From Zhihengliuella halotolerans (GTDB lineage: Bacteria > Actinomycetota > Actinomycetes > Actinomycetales > Micrococcaceae): a DNA stretch of 64,000 nt. The position numbers and the translations under genes are program-made. The notes under the pieces are model-generated. The model did no database searches. It was not told where the DNA came from and saw nothing but the letters and a program-made list of their open reading frames with translations. The stretch lies in NCBI RefSeq assembly GCF_004217565.1, contig NZ_SHLA01000001.1, positions 744,001-808,000 of the forward strand, written 5' to 3'. Shown here in pieces: positions 40,054 through 47,582 of the stretch. Each line of letters starts with the position of its first letter. The stretch's first letter is position 1.

Positions 40054-40082
40054 CCGCTCTGAACCCTGCCGGTTCAGAGCGG
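40054..40082. terminator. Hairpin shared by parE and M56 gene ends
   Basis: A perfect 12-bp stem (CCGCTCTGAACC / GGTTCAGAGCGG), loop CTGCC, starts 2 nt after the parE stop and its right arm contains the last codons and stop of the convergent M56 gene. No U-tract. Confidence 0.75.
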
Positions 40083-41006
40083 CAGGGCCGGGGCCACGAG
40101 CAGAACAGTCGGGGCCACGACCAGCAGGGCGGCCGCCGCGACGAGCGCCACCCGCGAAGTCTTCGGCAGGCGCGGCGCCGGTGTGATCAGCCGCTTGAGG
40201 CGCTGCGCGGAAAGGTCGCCCTCCGGCAGTCCGGACGCTGCGCCGGGCGGCGGTGCCTGGCCGGTGGCCGCGGTGATCAGCGCGCGCAACAGGACCGCGG
40301 AATCGACCTGGCGCAGGGCGGCGTCGTCGGCCAGCATCTCGATCAGCTCGTGCACGGCACCGCGGGCGAGCTTCGAGGTGGGAAGCCAGGGCAAGGCCTG
40401 ATGCCACGATTCGAACGCCAGCACCAGCAGGTCGTGGCGCTGGTCCAGATGGGCCCGTTCGTGGGCCAGGACGGCCCTGAGCCCGGCTGGATCCAGGGCG
40501 TCCATGAGTCCGCGGGAGACCACGGTCACAGAACTCGTGAGCCCGGGAAGGCAGTACGCGACGGGCGCATCGTGCTGGACGACGACAGTCCGGGCGTCGG
40601 AAGGCGCCGGGTTCGAGAGCAGCGCCAGCAGCTTGCGGTGGCGCGACCGGTGGCGGTTGACGCGGACCCAGGTCAGCAGCAGCGTGAAGACAAGGTGGAG
40701 GCCGAGTAGGACCGCGGCACTGAGCGCGAAGAGGTGCACGGGGCCGAGTCGGTCCGCCGAGATGCGCCCCGAGAACACGTCCCACAGTCCGCCGAGCCCC
40801 GCGAGCAGGTTGTCACCCAGCGGAGCAAGCCCCCAGATCAGCATCGATCCGATCATCGACAGCCCGCCGGCGAGGGCGATGGCCTGCCAGAAGATCAGTG
40901 TCGTGAAAGGCGAGCGACTGGTGAACGAGGCACGCGAAAGCCAGACCGGGACGGGCCACGCCAGAGCGATGGCCAGACCCGCCAGCAGGTACGAGGTCAG
41001 CAGCAC
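40074..41006 (-). CDS. M56 family membrane metallopeptidase (BlaR1-like sensor)
   Basis: 310 residues with four or five membrane segments (N-terminal pair about 2-22 and 36-58, one near 95-115, a C-terminal one near 285-305). The zinc motif HERAH is in LAHERAHLDQRHDLL with the further Glu in VHELIEMLADDAAL, typical of M56/BlaR1 peptidases. There is no beta-lactam-binding C-terminal domain, so this is not a penicillin sensor of the staphylococcal type. It is encoded just after blaI (24-nt gap); in such pairs the protease cleaves the repressor on a signal. The signal is unknown, but operator placement suggests respiration. Confidence 0.88.
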   Translation of the reverse strand: MLLTSYLLAGLAIALAWPVPVWLSRASFTSRSPFTTLIFWQAIALAGGLSMIGSMLIWGLAPLGDNLLAGLGGLWDVFSGRISADRLGPVHLFALSAAVLLGLHLVFTLLLTWVRVNRHRSRHRKLLALLSNPAPSDARTVVVQHDAPVAYCLPGLTSSVTVVSRGLMDALDPAGLRAVLAHERAHLDQRHDLLVLAFESWHQALPWLPTSKLARGAVHELIEMLADDAALRQVDSAVLLRALITAATGQAPPPGAASGLPEGDLSAQRLKRLITPAPRLPKTSRVALVAAAALLVVAPTVLLVAPALPL

Positions 41007-41030: not shown

Positions 41031-41462
41031 CTAGGCCGTTTGGCCGGACGGGGCCGAGCGCGATTCGGGGTCACGCGCGGGTCCGGTGGAGTTGGCGGGG
41101 CCGTCTTCCAGGATACGGCGTAAGGCGGCTGCCTCGCCGCCCGAGATGCCGCCGATGAACCGTGCAAGGACCGCCTCGCGGTCCATGACGTTGCCGAGGG
41201 CTTCATTCATGAGTTCTACGGTGTGCTCCTCGCGGCTCATGACCGCGCGGTACCGGTGTGGACGCGTGTCGCGCTCGCGGGTGACGAGATCCTTTTTCTC
41301 GAGGCGGGCAAGCACCGTGAGGACGGTGGTCACGGCCAGCTCTTTGCCGTCCTGTGTGCCCGAATGCGCCAGCGCGTCCCGGAGGCTGTTGGCCGTCTGG
41401 GCTTCGGTGCTGTCCCACAGAAGGTCCATGACCGCACGCTCGAGGTCGCCAAGTGAGGCCAC
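41031..41462 (-). CDS. BlaI/MecI/CopY family transcriptional repressor
   Basis: 143 residues from GTG 41462. A winged helix-turn-helix covers about 1-75 (LGDLERAVMDLLWDS, LAVTTVLTVLARLEKKDLV, HRYRAVMSREEHT) and a dimerisation helix region about 80-125, both standard for BlaI. A variable acidic/Pro tail follows. It is followed by an M56 peptidase gene, the typical partner. Three palindromes between its start and cydA are the likely operators, so it probably represses both itself and cydABDC. Confidence 0.92.
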   Translation of the reverse strand: MASLGDLERAVMDLLWDSTEAQTANSLRDALAHSGTQDGKELAVTTVLTVLARLEKKDLVTRERDTRPHRYRAVMSREEHTVELMNEALGNVMDREAVLARFIGGISGGEAAALRRILEDGPANSTGPARDPESRSAPSGQTA

Positions 41463-41512: not shown

Positions 41513-41518
41513 AATTTA
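41513..41518 (-). promoter_or_regulatory. Possible -10 (TAAATT) of the blaI promoter
   Basis: On the minus strand TAAATT lies about 50 nt before the blaI GTG. A 17-nt spacer would place its -35 at 41536-41541, inside operator 1, although that hexamer (TAGAAA) is a poor -35. Confidence 0.35.
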
Positions 41519-41536: not shown

Positions 41537-41553
41537 TTCTACGTGGAGTAGAA
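41537..41553. promoter_or_regulatory. Operator 1, blaI-proximal palindrome
   Basis: TTCTACG-TGG-AGTAGAA: 17 bp with one mismatch from the perfect palindrome of the other two sites. It is the nearest to blaI and overlaps the expected -35 of the blaI promoter. Confidence 0.7.
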
Positions 41554-41562
41554 CGAGGGGTA

Positions 41563-41579
41563 TTCTACGTAGCGTAGAA
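41563..41579. promoter_or_regulatory. Operator 2, perfect palindrome
   Basis: TTCTACG-TAG-CGTAGAA, a perfect 7+3+7 inverted repeat, centred 26 bp from operator 1 and 21 bp from operator 3. Confidence 0.75.
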
Positions 41580-41583
41580 GTCG

Positions 41584-41600
41584 TTCTACGGCTCGTAGAA
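41584..41600. promoter_or_regulatory. Operator 3, cydA-proximal palindrome
   Basis: TTCTACG-GCT-CGTAGAA, identical half-sites to operator 2. Its centre is 21 bp (two helical turns) from operator 2, and it covers the expected -35 of the cydA promoter. Confidence 0.75.
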
Positions 41601-41653: not shown

Positions 41654-43228
41654 TTGGACCCGCTCGACATCGCCCGTTGGCAATTCGGCATCACGACCGT
41701 CTACCACTTCCTCATGGTCCCGTTGACGATCGGGCTCGGGGTCCTCGTCGCGAGCCTGCAGACCGCGTGGCACGTGACCGGACGCGAACACTACCTGCGC
41801 ATGACCAAGTTCTGGGGGAAGCTCTTCCTGATCAACTTCATCATGGGCGTCGCCACCGGCATCGTCCAGGAGTTCCAGTTCGGCATGGCGTGGAGCGAGT
41901 ACAGCCGCTTCGTCGGCGACGTCTTCGGGGCTCCGTTGGCCATGGAGGCCCTTCTGGCCTTCTTCGTCGAGTCGACCTTCCTCGGGCTGTGGATCTTCGG
42001 CTGGAAGCGGCTGCCCAAGGCTGTTCACCTCGCCTGCATCTGGTGCGCGTCGCTGGCGACGGTCTTCTCCGCCTATTTCATCCTCGTCGCCAACTCCTGG
42101 ATGCAGCACCCCGTCGGCACCGAGCTCGTCGACGGGAGGGGCGTCATGACCGATGCCTGGGCCGTCTTCACGAACAACACGGCGCTCGTGACGTTCCCCC
42201 ACACGATCTTCGGCGCGTTCGCCGTCGCCGGAGCATTCCTGCTCGGCATCGCCTGGTTCCACCTGTACAAGCGCCGCGCCGCCGGCATCGACACCGTCGA
42301 CGCGACCGGCCGCGTCGTCGTCGGTGAGGACACCTCCCGGGGGCGCAACCGCGACAAAACCGACTACCGCGTCTGGATCACGTCGCTGCGGCTCGGTGCC
42401 GTTGTCGCGCTGATCTCCTTCCTCGGCGTGGCCTTCAGCGGCCACGCGCAGGCACAGCTGATGTTCGAGCAGCAGCCCATGAAGATGGCCGCGGCCGAGG
42501 CTGCCTGCCACGACGGCACCGGCTTCTCGGTGCTCTCGATCGGGAACCTCTCCGCGGACGGTGCGACGACGTGCGAGGACATCGTCGCCGTCTACGAGAT
42601 CCCCGGGCTGCTCTCCTTCCTCGCCAACGACGACTTCACCACCGAGATCAAGGGAGTGAACACGCTCCTGCCGGAGTACCAGGAGAAGTACGGGACACAC
42701 CTGCCCGACGACCCGATGTACGGCGAGCGCGCCGGTCAGGAGATCAACTACTTGCCGCTCATGGAGGTCACCTACTGGGGCTTCCGCATGATGATCACCT
42801 TCGGCGGCCTGGCGGCGTTTGCGGCCGCGGTGGCGCTGTGGATCGTGCGCAAGGGAACGGTCCCGCAGCGACGGTGGCTCTCGCGCCTGGCCGTGTTCGG
42901 AATCCTCGCCCCGTTCGGCGCCAACAGCGCCGGCTGGATCTTCACGGAGATGGGACGCCAGCCCTTCGTCGTCGCGCCGAATCCCACGTTCGACGGCGTC
43001 GATCAGGTGTTCATGTTCACGGCGTCAGCCGTCTCGCCCGGGGTGAGCGCGGGGGAGATGCTCTTCTCCCTCGTCGCGCTGACGAGTGTGTACGCGGTGC
43101 TGCTCGTCGTCGAGGTGGTGCTGCTGTGGCGGTACGTCGGCGGCGGCGTGGGCTCGGCGATGCCGGAGCTCAATGATACGGACGACGGCGCCGGGCAGGA
43201 CGACGACGTCCTGGCCTTCGCCTACTAG
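41654..43228 (+). CDS. cydA: Cytochrome bd ubiquinol/menaquinol oxidase subunit I
   Basis: 524 residues, nine membrane helices expected. It oxidises menaquinol and reduces O2 with high affinity, using haems b558, b595 and d. The N-terminus MDPLDIARWQFGITTVYHFL carries the conserved early His ligand. GREH, GFRMMITFGG and NSAGWIFTEMGRQPF (quinol-oxidase signature) are present, along with a Q-loop region near 250-320. The TTG start is supported by GGGAGG 5 nt upstream. It is first in cydA-cydB-cydDC, with three likely BlaI operators in front. Confidence 0.96.
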   Translation: MDPLDIARWQFGITTVYHFLMVPLTIGLGVLVASLQTAWHVTGREHYLRMTKFWGKLFLINFIMGVATGIVQEFQFGMAWSEYSRFVGDVFGAPLAMEALLAFFVESTFLGLWIFGWKRLPKAVHLACIWCASLATVFSAYFILVANSWMQHPVGTELVDGRGVMTDAWAVFTNNTALVTFPHTIFGAFAVAGAFLLGIAWFHLYKRRAAGIDTVDATGRVVVGEDTSRGRNRDKTDYRVWITSLRLGAVVALISFLGVAFSGHAQAQLMFEQQPMKMAAAEAACHDGTGFSVLSIGNLSADGATTCEDIVAVYEIPGLLSFLANDDFTTEIKGVNTLLPEYQEKYGTHLPDDPMYGERAGQEINYLPLMEVTYWGFRMMITFGGLAAFAAAVALWIVRKGTVPQRRWLSRLAVFGILAPFGANSAGWIFTEMGRQPFVVAPNPTFDGVDQVFMFTASAVSPGVSAGEMLFSLVALTSVYAVLLVVEVVLLWRYVGGGVGSAMPELNDTDDGAGQDDDVLAFAY

Positions 43229-43242
43229 AGAAGGGGCTCGTC

Positions 43243-44265
43243 ATGGAATTTCTTCCCACGCTGTGGTTCATCAGCATCGCGGTCCTCTGGGCCGGGTACC
43301 TCTTCCTGGAGGGCTTCGATCTGGGCGTCGGCATGCTGCTCGGCCCCTTCGCCCGCTCGGAGAAGCAGCGCCGGTTGCTCATCAACACGGTCGGCCCCGT
43401 CTGGGACGGTAACGAGGTGTGGCTGATCACGGCCGCCGGGGCGACCTTCGCGGCCTTCCCGCACTGGTACGCGTCGCTGTTCGCCGCGATGTACGTACCT
43501 CTCGTGGTGGTGCTGCTGGCCCTGATCTTCCGGGCCGTGGCCTTCGAATACCGAGGCAAGGCGGAGACGGCCCTCACGCGCCGACTGTGGACGCTCGCGC
43601 TCTCGGCCGGAAGCCTCGTGATCGCCTTCGGCGTCGGCACCCTGCTGGCGGTGACGACGACGGGGCTCCCGCTCAACGCCAACGGTGACCGGGTGGGCGG
43701 CCCCTTCGCGTGGCTGAGCTGGCAGGCGGTCCTCGGCGGCTTGGCCGTCGTCGGCTTCTGCCTGGCCCAGGCGCTCGCGTTCCTGGCTCTGAAGACGGAC
43801 GGCGACGTGCGGGCGCGCTCCGCCCGCCTGCTCGCGCGCTGGGCGCCGGTGCTGCTGGCCCCGCTCGCCGGTTGGGCCGTCGTCGTCGTGGCGGGGAACG
43901 TGCGTCCGGCCGCGGTGATCGTGCTCGCCATCGGCGTGGCGGCGGCGCTGGCCTCGTGGCGCTCCGCCGCGCGTCGGGCTGAGGGCCGGGCGTTCCTGTT
44001 CCTCGGCCTCTTCCTGCTCGCTTCGGTCGCGGCGATCTTCACGTCCGCCTATCCCGCCGTGCTGCCCTCGACGCTCGACGCGGCATTCGATCTGACCGTG
44101 TCGAACGCCTCCTCCACGCCGTACACGCTGCAGCTCATGAGTATCGTTGCGGCCTTCGGGCTGCCGCTCGTGCTCGGCTACCAGGCGTGGACGTACTGGG
44201 TCTTCCGCCGCCGGATCACCGAGGCGCACATCCCCGAAGCGCACGCCGTCACGCGGATCGTCTGA
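43243..44265 (+). CDS. cydB: Cytochrome bd oxidase subunit II
   Basis: 340 residues with eight to nine membrane helices. It is the partner of CydA. The N-terminus LWFISIAVLWAGYLFLEGFD and GPVWDGNEVWLITAAGATFA are family signatures. YTLQLMSIVAAFGLPLVLGY is the last-helix motif. The GAGAAGGGG Shine-Dalgarno lies 14 nt after cydA. The stop overlaps the cydDC start (TGATG), so translation is coupled. Confidence 0.96.
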   Translation: MEFLPTLWFISIAVLWAGYLFLEGFDLGVGMLLGPFARSEKQRRLLINTVGPVWDGNEVWLITAAGATFAAFPHWYASLFAAMYVPLVVVLLALIFRAVAFEYRGKAETALTRRLWTLALSAGSLVIAFGVGTLLAVTTTGLPLNANGDRVGGPFAWLSWQAVLGGLAVVGFCLAQALAFLALKTDGDVRARSARLLARWAPVLLAPLAGWAVVVVAGNVRPAAVIVLAIGVAAALASWRSAARRAEGRAFLFLGLFLLASVAAIFTSAYPAVLPSTLDAAFDLTVSNASSTPYTLQLMSIVAAFGLPLVLGYQAWTYWVFRRRITEAHIPEAHAVTRIV

Positions 44266-47200
44266 TGGCTCGCACGACGTCGCCCCTGGCCCCGCTGCTC
44301 GAAGCCGATCTGCCCGGCACGCGCCGCCGCCTCACCCTGCTCGCCGCCTTCGCGTTCGCCAAGGCCGTCGGCCTGATTCTCGTCGCGGACGCGCTTGCCG
44401 TCGGAATCGGGCAGGTGGCCTCCGGCGATCGGCTCGATGCGACCCGGCTGGCGGTCTGGGGGCTTCTCGGCGCGGGTCTTCGCGCAGGGGCGATCGGGGC
44501 CACGAAACTTCTCGCGCAGCGCGCGGGCCTCGGCGCGAAGGAGGAGCTGCGTTCGCGGCTGCTGCGGCACCGGATGACGAGCCGGCCCGCCACGGGCCAC
44601 GACGACGTCGGCACAGTCTCCGCGCTGGCCACCCGCGGGCTCGACGGGCTCGACGCCTACTTCACCACCTACGTCCCCGCGCTCATGACCGCGGCCGTAG
44701 TCCCCGCGGTCGTGGGCTTGCGCATCCTCGCCGCCGACTGGGTCTCGGCGCTGATCGTCGCCCTGACGGTCCCGCTCGTGCCGCTCTTCATGGTGCTGAT
44801 CGGGCTGCACACGCAGGAGCGGATCGCTGCCGCGGCCGCGGGCGTCGCGCGGCTCTCCTCGCACCTGCTGGAACTCGCCCAGGGGCTGCCTGCCCTCATC
44901 GGGCTCCGCCGCGCCGGCGCCAAGCGCCGGGCCCTGGGCGAGGTATCGGAACGCTACCGTGCGACGACGATGGAGACCCTGCGGACCGCCTTCCTGTCCT
45001 CCCTGGCGCTCGAGCTCATCGCCACGATCTCAGTCGCCGTGGTCGCGGTGTTCGTCGGCGTCCGGCTCGTGCATGGCGACATGGAGCTCACGGCCGGGCT
45101 CGTGGCCCTGATCCTGGCACCGGAGTGTTTCCTGCCCTTGCGCGAGGTGGGGGCGGCCTTCCACGCTTCCGAGGACGGGGTCGAGGCCCTGCGCCGCACG
45201 CGCGAACGGGTGGACGAGGCGGGTCGCGTCCGGCCGGTGACTCCCGTCGCAGGCGTGGCGCGCGTGGGTGCACCCGCCGGCGGGGTCGAGCTGCGCGGGC
45301 TCGCCGTCGAGTACGACGGCGAGGCCGTCGTCGGACCCGTGAGCCTCGCCCTGCGTCCTGGCGACGTGGAGGTCTTCGACGGCCCGAGCGGCAGCGGCAA
45401 GACCAGCCTGCTCGCCGCCGTCGCCGGGACCCTGCCCGACGCCGCACTCCGCGGGCGGTACGTCGTCGACGCCGAGCGGACGCTCTGGATCCCGCAGCAC
45501 CCCACGACGACGGAGTCGACGGTCGCGGACGAGCTCGGCCTCTACGCCGGCCGTCCGCTGGCACGCCGCGAAGGGGACGCCGTGCTGGAGGCCGTGGGCC
45601 TGCACGGGACCGGCGACGCGGACCCGGCGACGCTGAGCCCGGGGGAGCTGCGCCGGCTCGCGATCGCCCGCGCGGTGGCCCGGGTCCGGCACGGTGCCCC
45701 GGTCGACGTCGTCCTCGCCGACGAACCCACCGGGCACCTCGACGCGGAGAACGCCGAGCGGGTGCGCGACGTCGTCGTGCAGCTGATCGCCGGGCGCGCG
45801 GCGCTCGTGGCGACGCACGATCGCCGGCTCGCCGCGCGACTGCGCGGACAGCGGGCCCCCGCTGAATCGCCCGGAACCACCGACGCACCCCACAGCGACG
45901 CGATCCCCGGCGCGCGGGATGCGACGCCCGAGGCCTCCGCCCGTGGGGCCGCGTGGCGCGCCGTGCTCGGCGGCTTGCCCCGGCGCCGCGTCGCCCTGGC
46001 GCTCGCCGTCGGGACGGTCTCGGCGCTCTTCGCCGCGGCCCTGACGGGCGTTTCGGGCTGGCTCATCGTCTCCGCGAGCCACCAGCCGCCCATGCTGCAC
46101 CTCATGGTCGCGATCGTCGGCGTCCGCTTCTTCGGCATCGGGCGCTCCGTCGCGCGCTACACGGAACAGCTGCTCGTGCACGACGCCCTGCTCACCTGGG
46201 CATCCACAACTCGTCAGCGCGTGTGGGACGGCCTCGTCGCCTCGCCGCGGTGGTGGGGGCGGATCACGCGCGGCGGCGGGTCGCTGGAGTATCTCGTGAC
46301 CCGGCTCGACGAGGTCCGCGACGGCCTGCCGCGTGTGCTGTTCCCTCCCGTGACGGGCCTGCTCGCTGCGGCGGGCGTCTGCACGGCCATCGGCGCCTGG
46401 GCGCCGGACGCGCTCTGGGTGGCCCTCGCCGCGACCGTGCTCGGGTGGGTGGTGCTGCCGGCCGTCGTCGTCCGGATCGACGCCGCGGCCCGCGCTGACG
46501 TGATCGAGCACCGGGCGTGGCTCGCCCGCCGCGTGCCCGTCCTGCTCCGCGCGGCGGACCAGCTGCGCGCCAACGGCGCCGCGGCGACGGCCCTGCGAGC
46601 CTTCACCCGGCACGACGGAGCCGCTTCCGCCCGGCTCGTCGCCACCGGGCGCGCAGAGTCGGTGGCCGCGGCCGCGGCAGCCGGCATCGCGTCGGTCGGA
46701 GCGGTGGCGGCGCTTCTCGCCTCCGCCGGCCACGGGGGCGAGACCGCAGCCATGAGCGCGCTGCTGCTGCTCGCCCTGGCCGAGCCCATGGCGACGACGG
46801 CCACCGCCGCGCAGAACGCCCGTTCCCTCGACGAGGGAGTGCGGCGGCTGGCGGCCGTGCTGCCCTCCGAAGATGCGGACCTCGCCGAGCCGGCCACCGG
46901 AACAAGCCCGATCGACGGCCTGCGCGCCGTAGACGTCGACGCCGGATGGGAAGACGGCGCGGAGCGTGTCCTGTCCGGGGTGAGCGCCGGCGTCGTCCGA
47001 GGGAGCTGGGCGGTCGTGTCCGGGCCCTCGGGCAGCGGAAAATCCACGCTGCTGGCGGTCCTGCTCGGTGAGCTCGCGCCGGGCGCCGGACGCATCGAGG
47101 TGCTGCGCTCTGGCGCATGGCGGGAGGCGTATGACGCAGATCACTCCCGGATCGCCTGGTGCCCTCAGGAGGCGCACCTCTTCGATTCGAGCGTGCGCGC

Positions 47201-47582
47201 GAACCTCGGCCTCGGCCGCGGGGACCAGGGTGACCCGGTGACGGATCAGGAACTGCTCGCCGCCCTGGAACATGTGGGGCTCGGCCCCTGGTTCGAGGGG
47301 AAGCCGGATGGTCTGGACACCCGCATCGGTTCAGGCGGGCACGCGCTCTCGGGCGGGCAGCGCCAGCGCCTCGCCGTGGCCCGGGCGCTCGTGGCGCGGG
47401 CCGACGTCGTCCTCCTCGACGAGCCGACCGCCCACCTGGGTGAGGACGAAGCGTCCTCGCTCATCGCGGACCTGCGCGCGGCGCTCGCCGACCGGGCGGT
47501 CGTGCTGGTCACTCACGACGAACGCCTCGGCGCCGCCGGTGACGTCCGCGTGCGCCTCGGCGCGGTGGGGGCGCCGGCCTAG
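44265..47582 (+). CDS. cydDC: Fused thiol-reductant ABC exporter CydDC
   Basis: 1105 residues joining CydD and CydC in one chain. The heterodimer exports cysteine/glutathione-type thiols (haem binding also reported) and is needed to assemble cytochrome bd. First half: membrane domain about 20-320 and nucleotide-binding domain with Walker A GPSGSGKT near 373, a non-canonical signature LSPGELRRLAIARA and ADEPTGHL. A Pro/Ala linker lies near 545-560. Second half: membrane domain about 570-860 and Walker A GPSGSGKS near 920, canonical LSGGQRQRLAVARA and LLDEPTAHL. The asymmetric signatures suggest one degenerate ATP site. ATG overlaps the cydB stop; the stop shares CTAG with convergent parC. Confidence 0.95.
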   Translation: MARTTSPLAPLLEADLPGTRRRLTLLAAFAFAKAVGLILVADALAVGIGQVASGDRLDATRLAVWGLLGAGLRAGAIGATKLLAQRAGLGAKEELRSRLLRHRMTSRPATGHDDVGTVSALATRGLDGLDAYFTTYVPALMTAAVVPAVVGLRILAADWVSALIVALTVPLVPLFMVLIGLHTQERIAAAAAGVARLSSHLLELAQGLPALIGLRRAGAKRRALGEVSERYRATTMETLRTAFLSSLALELIATISVAVVAVFVGVRLVHGDMELTAGLVALILAPECFLPLREVGAAFHASEDGVEALRRTRERVDEAGRVRPVTPVAGVARVGAPAGGVELRGLAVEYDGEAVVGPVSLALRPGDVEVFDGPSGSGKTSLLAAVAGTLPDAALRGRYVVDAERTLWIPQHPTTTESTVADELGLYAGRPLARREGDAVLEAVGLHGTGDADPATLSPGELRRLAIARAVARVRHGAPVDVVLADEPTGHLDAENAERVRDVVVQLIAGRAALVATHDRRLAARLRGQRAPAESPGTTDAPHSDAIPGARDATPEASARGAAWRAVLGGLPRRRVALALAVGTVSALFAAALTGVSGWLIVSASHQPPMLHLMVAIVGVRFFGIGRSVARYTEQLLVHDALLTWASTTRQRVWDGLVASPRWWGRITRGGGSLEYLVTRLDEVRDGLPRVLFPPVTGLLAAAGVCTAIGAWAPDALWVALAATVLGWVVLPAVVVRIDAAARADVIEHRAWLARRVPVLLRAADQLRANGAAATALRAFTRHDGAASARLVATGRAESVAAAAAAGIASVGAVAALLASAGHGGETAAMSALLLLALAEPMATTATAAQNARSLDEGVRRLAAVLPSEDADLAEPATGTSPIDGLRAVDVDAGWEDGAERVLSGVSAGVVRGSWAVVSGPSGSGKSTLLAVLLGELAPGAGRIEVLRSGAWREAYDADHSRIAWCPQEAHLFDSSVRANLGLGRGDQGDPVTDQELLAALEHVGLGPWFEGKPDGLDTRIGSGGHALSGGQRQRLAVARALVARADVVLLDEPTAHLGEDEASSLIADLRAALADRAVVLVTHDERLGAAGDVRVRLGAVGAPA

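Follow-up and report, generated by a model that had tools for sequence, protein, structure and literature searches.

Among described BlaI systems, the closest is that of Mycobacterium tuberculosis, in which BlaI (Rv1846c) is paired with BlaR (Rv1845c), a partner that lacks a sensor domain, and is reported to bind at the cytochrome bd and ATP-synthase promoters (PMC5473688, citing Sala et al., 2009). The same study is cited for atp in PMC5874750, rv1305 and atpE are named as predicted members of the BlaI regulon in PMC7924339, and BlaI was found at the Rv1303/atp promoter by electrophoretic mobility shift assay, with lower transcription of the M. smegmatis counterpart of Rv1303/atp when BlaI was overexpressed (PMC12565901). 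By transposon sequencing, blaR is needed for haem use in M. tuberculosis (PMC7058343). In cyanobacteria, a BlaI/BlaR1-type copper switch, PetR/PetP, pairs a BlaI-family regulator with a BlaR1-family protease and exchanges one electron-transfer protein, which contains copper, for another that contains haem (PMC7896320). Here we analyzed a related locus in Zhihengliuella halotolerans, within a stretch of 64,000 nucleotides (the window; contig NZ_SHLA01000001.1, positions 744,001 to 808,000), where blaI and a gene for an M56-like membrane protease are divergent from the cytochrome bd operon and the gap between them holds an array of three palindromes. A preliminary description of the window had tied mycobacterial BlaI to respiration and ATP synthase genes, and this tie is indeed in print (PMC5473688, PMC5874750, PMC12565901).

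The three palindromes are likely to be operators for the BlaI encoded next to them, and this BlaI would act as a respiration-wide repressor of cytochrome bd, the backup oxidase, together with haem, copper and ATP-synthase genes. All three lie within the 191 nt between blaI and cydA: operator 1, proximal to blaI (TTCTACGTGGAGTAGAA, 41537..41553), operator 2, the distal member of the cydA pair (TTCTACGTAGCGTAGAA, 41563..41579), and operator 3, proximal to cydA (TTCTACGGCTCGTAGAA, 41584..41600), each 17 bp long and unstranded, with centres 26 and 21 bp apart. Positions, spacing and the single mismatch of operator 1 to the strict pattern TTCTACGN3CGTAGAA are as the preliminary description gave them. 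Because relatives vary the seventh and eleventh bases, we replaced this pattern by TTCTACN5GTAGAA (the dyad), to which all three sites are exact; operators 2 and 3 are perfect to both. Allowing up to three mismatches, the 64-kb window holds six matches, three of them the array, compared with 0.85 expected and a maximum of three in 100 shuffles. The three-palindrome array is real.

The array is conserved. A search of 59 relatives gave a BlaI match in 39, and the best 30 loci were scored. Each of the 30 carries an M56-like gene as well as one or more dyads upstream of blaI, and in 26 cydA adjoins blaI, which it does not in the other four. We also collected named loci, the best 80 of 573 confirmed by scanning, which by record title are 79 of Micrococcaceae type (we take the named genera other than Zhihengliuella to belong to this family) and one Agromyces. 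All 80 have an M56 match and, upstream of blaI, an operator (exact in 79) that BlaI itself is predicted to bind. Divergent cydA is found in 75 of the 80, with two (17 loci) or three (58 loci) operators within one mismatch, and the five loci with no cydA in the flank have exactly one operator, exact in four and with one mismatch in L368. When cydA lies away from blaI (genomes G008 and G060; loci L099 and L100), two operators are found at cydA and one at blaI. The cydA-side pair is 24–25 bp apart in 56 of the 72 cydA-bearing loci with at least two exact sites, and 21 in the window. A pair at cydA is usual, not universal: L041, L048 and L053 among the 26 loci, and L438 in genome G024, have a single dyad despite cydA. 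Most likely, then, the array comprises one predicted site for blaI-M56 and a pair for cyd. The preliminary description would have been contradicted by palindromes that are not conserved upstream of cydA or blaI in related genomes; the sequence half of that test was run, and the sites are conserved across relatives.

We collected the DNA upstream of atp, ctaE, ctaB and hemQ from all matched genomes and compared BlaI-positive genomes with six counted as BlaI-negative (G006, G009, G018, G036, G061 and G015); BlaI presence was assumed from genus mates in G059 and G062–G065 and was seen in the fetched locus in G060. Within one mismatch, a site precedes the ATP synthase genes in 28/35 BlaI-positive and 0/6 BlaI-negative genomes, ctaE in 16/35 and 0/5, ctaB in 15/35 and 0/5, and hemQ in 25/35 (19 of them exact) and 0/6. 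Of 59 permuted dyads, none did better than 1, 1, 1 and 0 at atp, ctaE, ctaB and hemQ. At least one of the four sites is present in 34/35 BlaI-positive genomes and in none of the six others, and 18/35 have three or four. Cores and flanks vary between genomes while the arms stay the same (21 different cores in 25 hemQ sites), and thus the sites have not merely been copied along with their surroundings, with the caveat that sites were selected by their arms and that the genomes are related. In a window of 1,500 bp upstream of atpB, the atp site is 159–288 bp from atpB in G005, G016 and G059 and about 820–1,040 bp away in most other genomes, where it stands before the genes that precede atpB. At three of the 25 hemQ sites (G064, G010 and G062), a motif similar to a CRP/FNR-type site, GTGA-N6-TCAC, stands immediately before the operator.

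A survey with no genes chosen beforehand gave a similar picture. In 13 genomes among the matches listed, we took all 48 sites off the blaI-cydA locus, which make up 46 loci, and classed them by tblastn with reference proteins that came partly from the same loci; genes were called by a simple GC-position rule that misplaced some frames (for example L089, L095 and L107). The classes were hemQ (10), flavohaemoglobin (6), cytochrome-c maturation (5), copper (5, two directly at copC and three classed by the next gene), sufR (3), cydA away from blaI (2), group III truncated haemoglobin (2, PDB 2ig3) and qcrC (1), with the remainder made up of pyridoxamine-oxidase-like genes (3), two unnamed membrane families (5 and 2) and unassigned loci (2). 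In all, 34 of the 46 fall in respiration, haem, nitric oxide (NO), iron-sulfur (Fe-S) or copper functions. Names come from Pfam for hemQ, flavohaemoglobin, CopC, ferrochelatase, SufB, the ATP-synthase a chain, histidine phosphatase and MatE, from NCBIfam for ctaE and from the PDB match for truncated haemoglobin; ctaB (Pfam UbiA), qcrC (Pfam cytochrome c) and sucC (Pfam ATP-grasp_2 and CoA-ligase) are our reading of the matches, as are resA and sufR, whose NCBIfam scores are below cut-off.

Several operator-bearing genes in these loci are of interest in themselves. A short unnamed membrane protein with an exact operator occurs in five relatives (L084, L092, L095, L108 and L116), in L084 near a MatE transporter; neither of the two members scanned scores above the cut-off of any Pfam family, and it is possibly a new respiratory accessory gene. 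A second small membrane family has an exact operator in L096 and L111. A Pyridox_ox_2 flavoprotein-like gene has an exact operator centred 16–17 bp from its predicted start (L088, L093 and L114). Just upstream of the operator-bearing flavohaemoglobin gene is a gene for an Rrf2-type regulator (L085, by Pfam; L089, L117 and L119), and thus two regulators may share this target.

The genome of Z. halotolerans itself, scanned whole as a single contig of 3.58 Mb, has 17 sites within one mismatch, 11 of them at respiratory, haem, NO, Fe-S or copper places. These are the array (3), copC-copD, a membrane gene with a ycnI-like gene after it, sucC, sufR, ctaE, ctaB, the atp operon and a histidine phosphatase-resA locus; YcnI and CopC presumably have a role in copper handling. 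Five sites are exact, those of the array and of the two copper loci. Two short genes precede atpB, and the atp site, which has one mismatch, lies 74 bp upstream of the first. Sites at blaI, cydA and the ATP-synthase operon are what a BlaI respiratory regulon of the M. tuberculosis type would have. The promoters of ctaB, ctaE and sufR are divergent from a transketolase-like gene, another gene and an ABC-transporter gene, respectively, so that the true target could be on the other side.

Outside the family, exact dyads are rare. A survey of 236 genomes of the phylum with this one pattern found it in 15, more than once only in two genomes of family f1, while BlaI matches at E ≤ 1e-12 occur in 29. 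Divergent cydA with dyads is also present in Agromyces (L376) and in G056 (family f19). In G276 (f24), blaI-M56 is divergent from cydA with sites of the type TACTAC-N5-GTAGTA, and in G266 (f23) blaI, M56 and cydA run in one direction. We ran this TA/TA form on seven genomes chosen from the 29 with BlaI, including four of the six from f22, a family that is probably mycobacterial, as judged from one BlaI (E 5.5e-67 to 2g9w). In the four f22 genomes, TACKACN5GTAGTA lies upstream of blaI in 4/4, cydA in 4/4 and the atp operon in 3/4; the rest of their 18 places are a membrane family shared with the Micrococcaceae (1, the second small family above; L413:1550-1900), DUF4383 (2) and others (4). G266 has a tandem pair at another cydA. 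Two sites in G276 are near copC genes, the first at a distance of 49 bp and the second some 650 bp upstream. Control counts are 0–3 per strand against 0–6 for the pattern, with no excess in G266, so the argument lies in which genes bear the sites and not in the totals. The DUF4383 gene encodes a membrane protein and bears TACTACN5GTAGTA in two f22 genomes (L425:1554-1988 and L430:1032-1460).

How BlaI would act can be read in part from where the sites stand relative to promoters. The preliminary description had placed the outer sites at the -35 elements of blaI and cydA. On the blaI side the relatives support this: a GGTANATTTG-like -10 box, read by eye in the named relatives, is conserved, the operator overlaps the -35 position (79 loci), and in the window the probable -10 is TAAATT (41513..41518, minus strand), whose -35 would overlap operator 1. 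On the cydA side the claim was not supported, and no promoter was found. In 21/28 sites at atp, an extended -10 (TGTAGAAT) is covered by the dyad, and at ctaB, TATGAT lies within 15 nt downstream of the dyad in 8/15 loci. Overlap with or adjacency to promoter elements at blaI, atp and ctaB fits repression. The most serious alternative is that BlaI is a dual regulator like PetR, which has a BlaR1-family partner and represses one gene while activating another (PMC7896320). BlaI would then repress cyd, blaI and atp and, depending on operator position, activate genes such as ctaE-qcrC or hemQ, where the sites are mostly 125–140 bp (ctaE) and often 51–58 bp (hemQ) upstream of the start codon and no -10 box is tied to either. 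We consider this unlikely, since the sites at blaI, atp and ctaB overlap or adjoin promoter-like elements, as expected of repression.

A more improbable alternative is that the pair serves chiefly in the response to beta-lactams or cell-envelope stress, the role it is often given in mycobacteria, and that its respiratory sites are secondary. The family names suggest this, and in M. tuberculosis both blaI-blaR and cydAB rise under a beta-lactam/clavulanate combination (PMC5473688). The BlaI of the window (41031..41462, minus strand, 143 aa, GTG start) is the only PF03965 (BlaI/MecI/CopY family) match that a profile search found in this genome, at 77.4 bits with a cut-off of 22.6, and its only PDB match at E ≤ 0.001 is 2g9w, which is named BlaI (Rv1846c) in PMC9045315. 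Downstream of it, the M56/M48-type membrane metalloprotease, which is BlaR1-like (40074..41006, minus strand, 310 aa; Pfam, alignment and hydropathy), matches Pfam M48 with 41.5 bits; it is one of 18 of 23 aligned members with Peptidase_M56 at E ≤ 0.001. It has the HExxH zinc-protease motif at residue 182 and a downstream glutamate, and H182, E183, H186 and E223 are invariant across the 23 sequences. Its chain terminates at residue 310, inside a hydrophobic segment that starts near residue 283, and by alignment and hydropathy no penicillin-binding sensor domain follows the last membrane segment, bearing out the preliminary claim of a partner that lacks beta-lactam sensing. The staphylococcal BlaI/BlaR1 and MecI/MecR1 systems combine the same repressor family with a protease partner, but the M56-like protein here is without their penicillin-sensor domain. 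Whereas the M. tuberculosis system also controls blaC, no beta-lactamase is among the operator target genes we identified, although neighbours were not exhaustively annotated, and the protease-repressor pair adjoins cydA in 75 of the 80 named loci. Operator conservation across genomes and the identity of the targets thus favour what the preliminary description had proposed, a respiratory switch rather than an antibiotic-resistance system.

Copper sensing by the repressor itself was considered and rejected. CopY copper repressors belong to the same superfamily, and copper loci are among the predicted targets here. CopY sensors bind copper at a cysteine metal site, whereas this BlaI has no cysteine at all and scores 32.3 bits with the CopY/TcrY model, for which the cut-off is 121.95.

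Could another respiratory regulator read the palindrome, with BlaI a bystander? Other regulators of cyd are known, Rex in Streptomyces and Crp1 in M. smegmatis (PMC7739888), and the case for BlaI operators in the Micrococcaceae is made from sequence, a point that favours this alternative as it weighs against our own. Yet exact operators are absent from the four family genomes that have no BlaI match (G006, G009, G018 and G036), and operators precede blaI in all scored loci and persist there where cydA is gone. G061, a genus mate of G009, also has no exact dyad, and G015, which has a distant BlaI only (E 1.8e-13), has one, equal to its control. We regard a bystander BlaI as very improbable. That the sites are chance palindromes or RNA hairpins, as inverted repeats near gene starts might be, has a negligible probability and is contradicted by their conservation. 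At least one TTCTACN5GTAGAA arose in only one of 20,000 single-base shuffles of the 191 nt between blaI and cydA, exact dyads in 41 family genomes sum to 189 against 19 for the reversed control, and a scan found no terminator-like site; a terminator hairpin was rejected.

Other observations weigh against BlaI as a respiration-wide repressor. At cydA, no promoter could be placed, as there is no conserved -10 (74 loci) and none by consensus scan. The Peptidase_M56 match of the window protein, at 21.5 bits, is below the Pfam cut-off of 31. Predicted targets shift by lineage: within one mismatch, ten BlaI-positive genomes, including this one, have no hemQ site, and sites are lacking at ctaE in 19/35 and at ctaB in 20/35. 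With two mismatches allowed, one BlaI-negative genome scores at atpB and one permuted dyad reaches 9/35 there. In the survey, 12 of the 46 loci are outside known respiratory, haem, NO, Fe-S and copper genes, and in the Z. halotolerans genome 6 of the 17 sites fall within genes or by promoters unconnected with these functions, with ten sites for the reversed control. Seven of the 18 places in f22 are not at blaI, cydA or atp, and in G154 no TA/TA site was found. Finally, the BlaI status of 7 of the 41 genomes is second-hand (from a genus mate or, for G060, from one locus), that of G061 is partly circular, and G015 was counted as BlaI-negative despite its distant BlaI.

The genes that the array would control are those of the cytochrome bd operon: cydA (subunit I; 41654..43228, plus strand, TTG start; PF01654, 490.9 bits), cydB (subunit II; 43243..44265, plus strand; PF02322, 314.1 bits) and a fused cydD-cydC exporter of the ABC type (44265..47582, plus strand; TIGR02857 CydD and TIGR02868 CydC, both above cut-off). 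The latter is a single gene of 1105 aa whose start overlaps the cydB stop codon. Among named BlaI genes, those closest to this one are in a record labelled Kocuria polaris MS50-16 (L302; 97% identity) and in Zhihengliuella salsuginis, of the Micrococcaceae (94%); the Kocuria label, being nearer than the genus mate, may be wrong.

It can be read directly from DNA that the operators are present and conserved, that they occur together with blaI and that they overlap promoter-like elements (at blaI, atp and, in 8/15 loci, ctaB); from this we infer binding and repression by BlaI, proteolysis by the M56 protein and a signal, as follows. A BlaI dimer on operator 1 would block the blaI-M56 promoter, giving autorepression, and dimers on the tandem pair at 41563 and 41584 would repress cydABDC. 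Single sites would place BlaI at copper-acquisition loci, ctaE-qcrC, ctaB, the ATP-synthase operon and cytochrome-c maturation genes, in this genome also at sucC and suf, and in relatives also at hemQ-hemH, flavohaemoglobin and truncated haemoglobin. The trigger may be a failing copper-dependent aa3 branch, through shortage of copper or haem, NO, cyanide or low oxygen. The partner M56 protease would then cleave or inactivate BlaI, and its loss would free the copper-independent cytochrome bd together with genes that rebuild the main chain. In Corynebacterium glutamicum, the response to copper deprivation includes bc1-aa3 assembly genes.

The core of this reading, BlaI at cyd and atp, has already been reported for M. 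tuberculosis and is not wholly new. What appears new is the Micrococcaceae system, the anatomy of its operators and its wider predicted regulon. Unlike in M. tuberculosis, cydA is here the divergent neighbour of blaI; the outer bases of the operator are TT/AA here and TA/TA in f22 genomes; and the predicted regulon extends further, to bc1-aa3, ctaB, hemQ-hemH, cytochrome-c maturation, copper loci, hmp and suf. Compared with PetR/PetP, on whose analogy copper control is proposed here, terminal oxidases would be swapped and the predicted target set is much wider. Our literature search, in which most subscription journals were absent and hemQ, ctaB and cytochrome-c maturation were not searched by name, gave among its top results no report on BlaI and respiration in the Micrococcaceae, and a text search gave no paper on BlaI in Arthrobacter.

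By analogy with PetR/PetP, we tentatively extend this model to the Actinobacteria as a whole, a step that is possible and on balance doubtful. BlaI-M56 might there be a proteolytic sensor of aa3 failure or copper starvation that switches, through a single type of operator, from the copper oxidase to cytochrome bd, with genes for copper uptake, haem and cytochrome-c synthesis, NO detoxification and ATP synthase, and mycobacterial beta-lactamase control might be a later addition. Collectively, our data provide a concrete genome-wide list of targets for a repressor family that is usually annotated as antibiotic resistance and suggest that the core job of BlaI in Actinobacteria is respiration. With a BlaR1-like protease that has no sensor domain beside cydA, and with sites shared by copper and haem genes, the signal that would induce cytochrome bd becomes testable.
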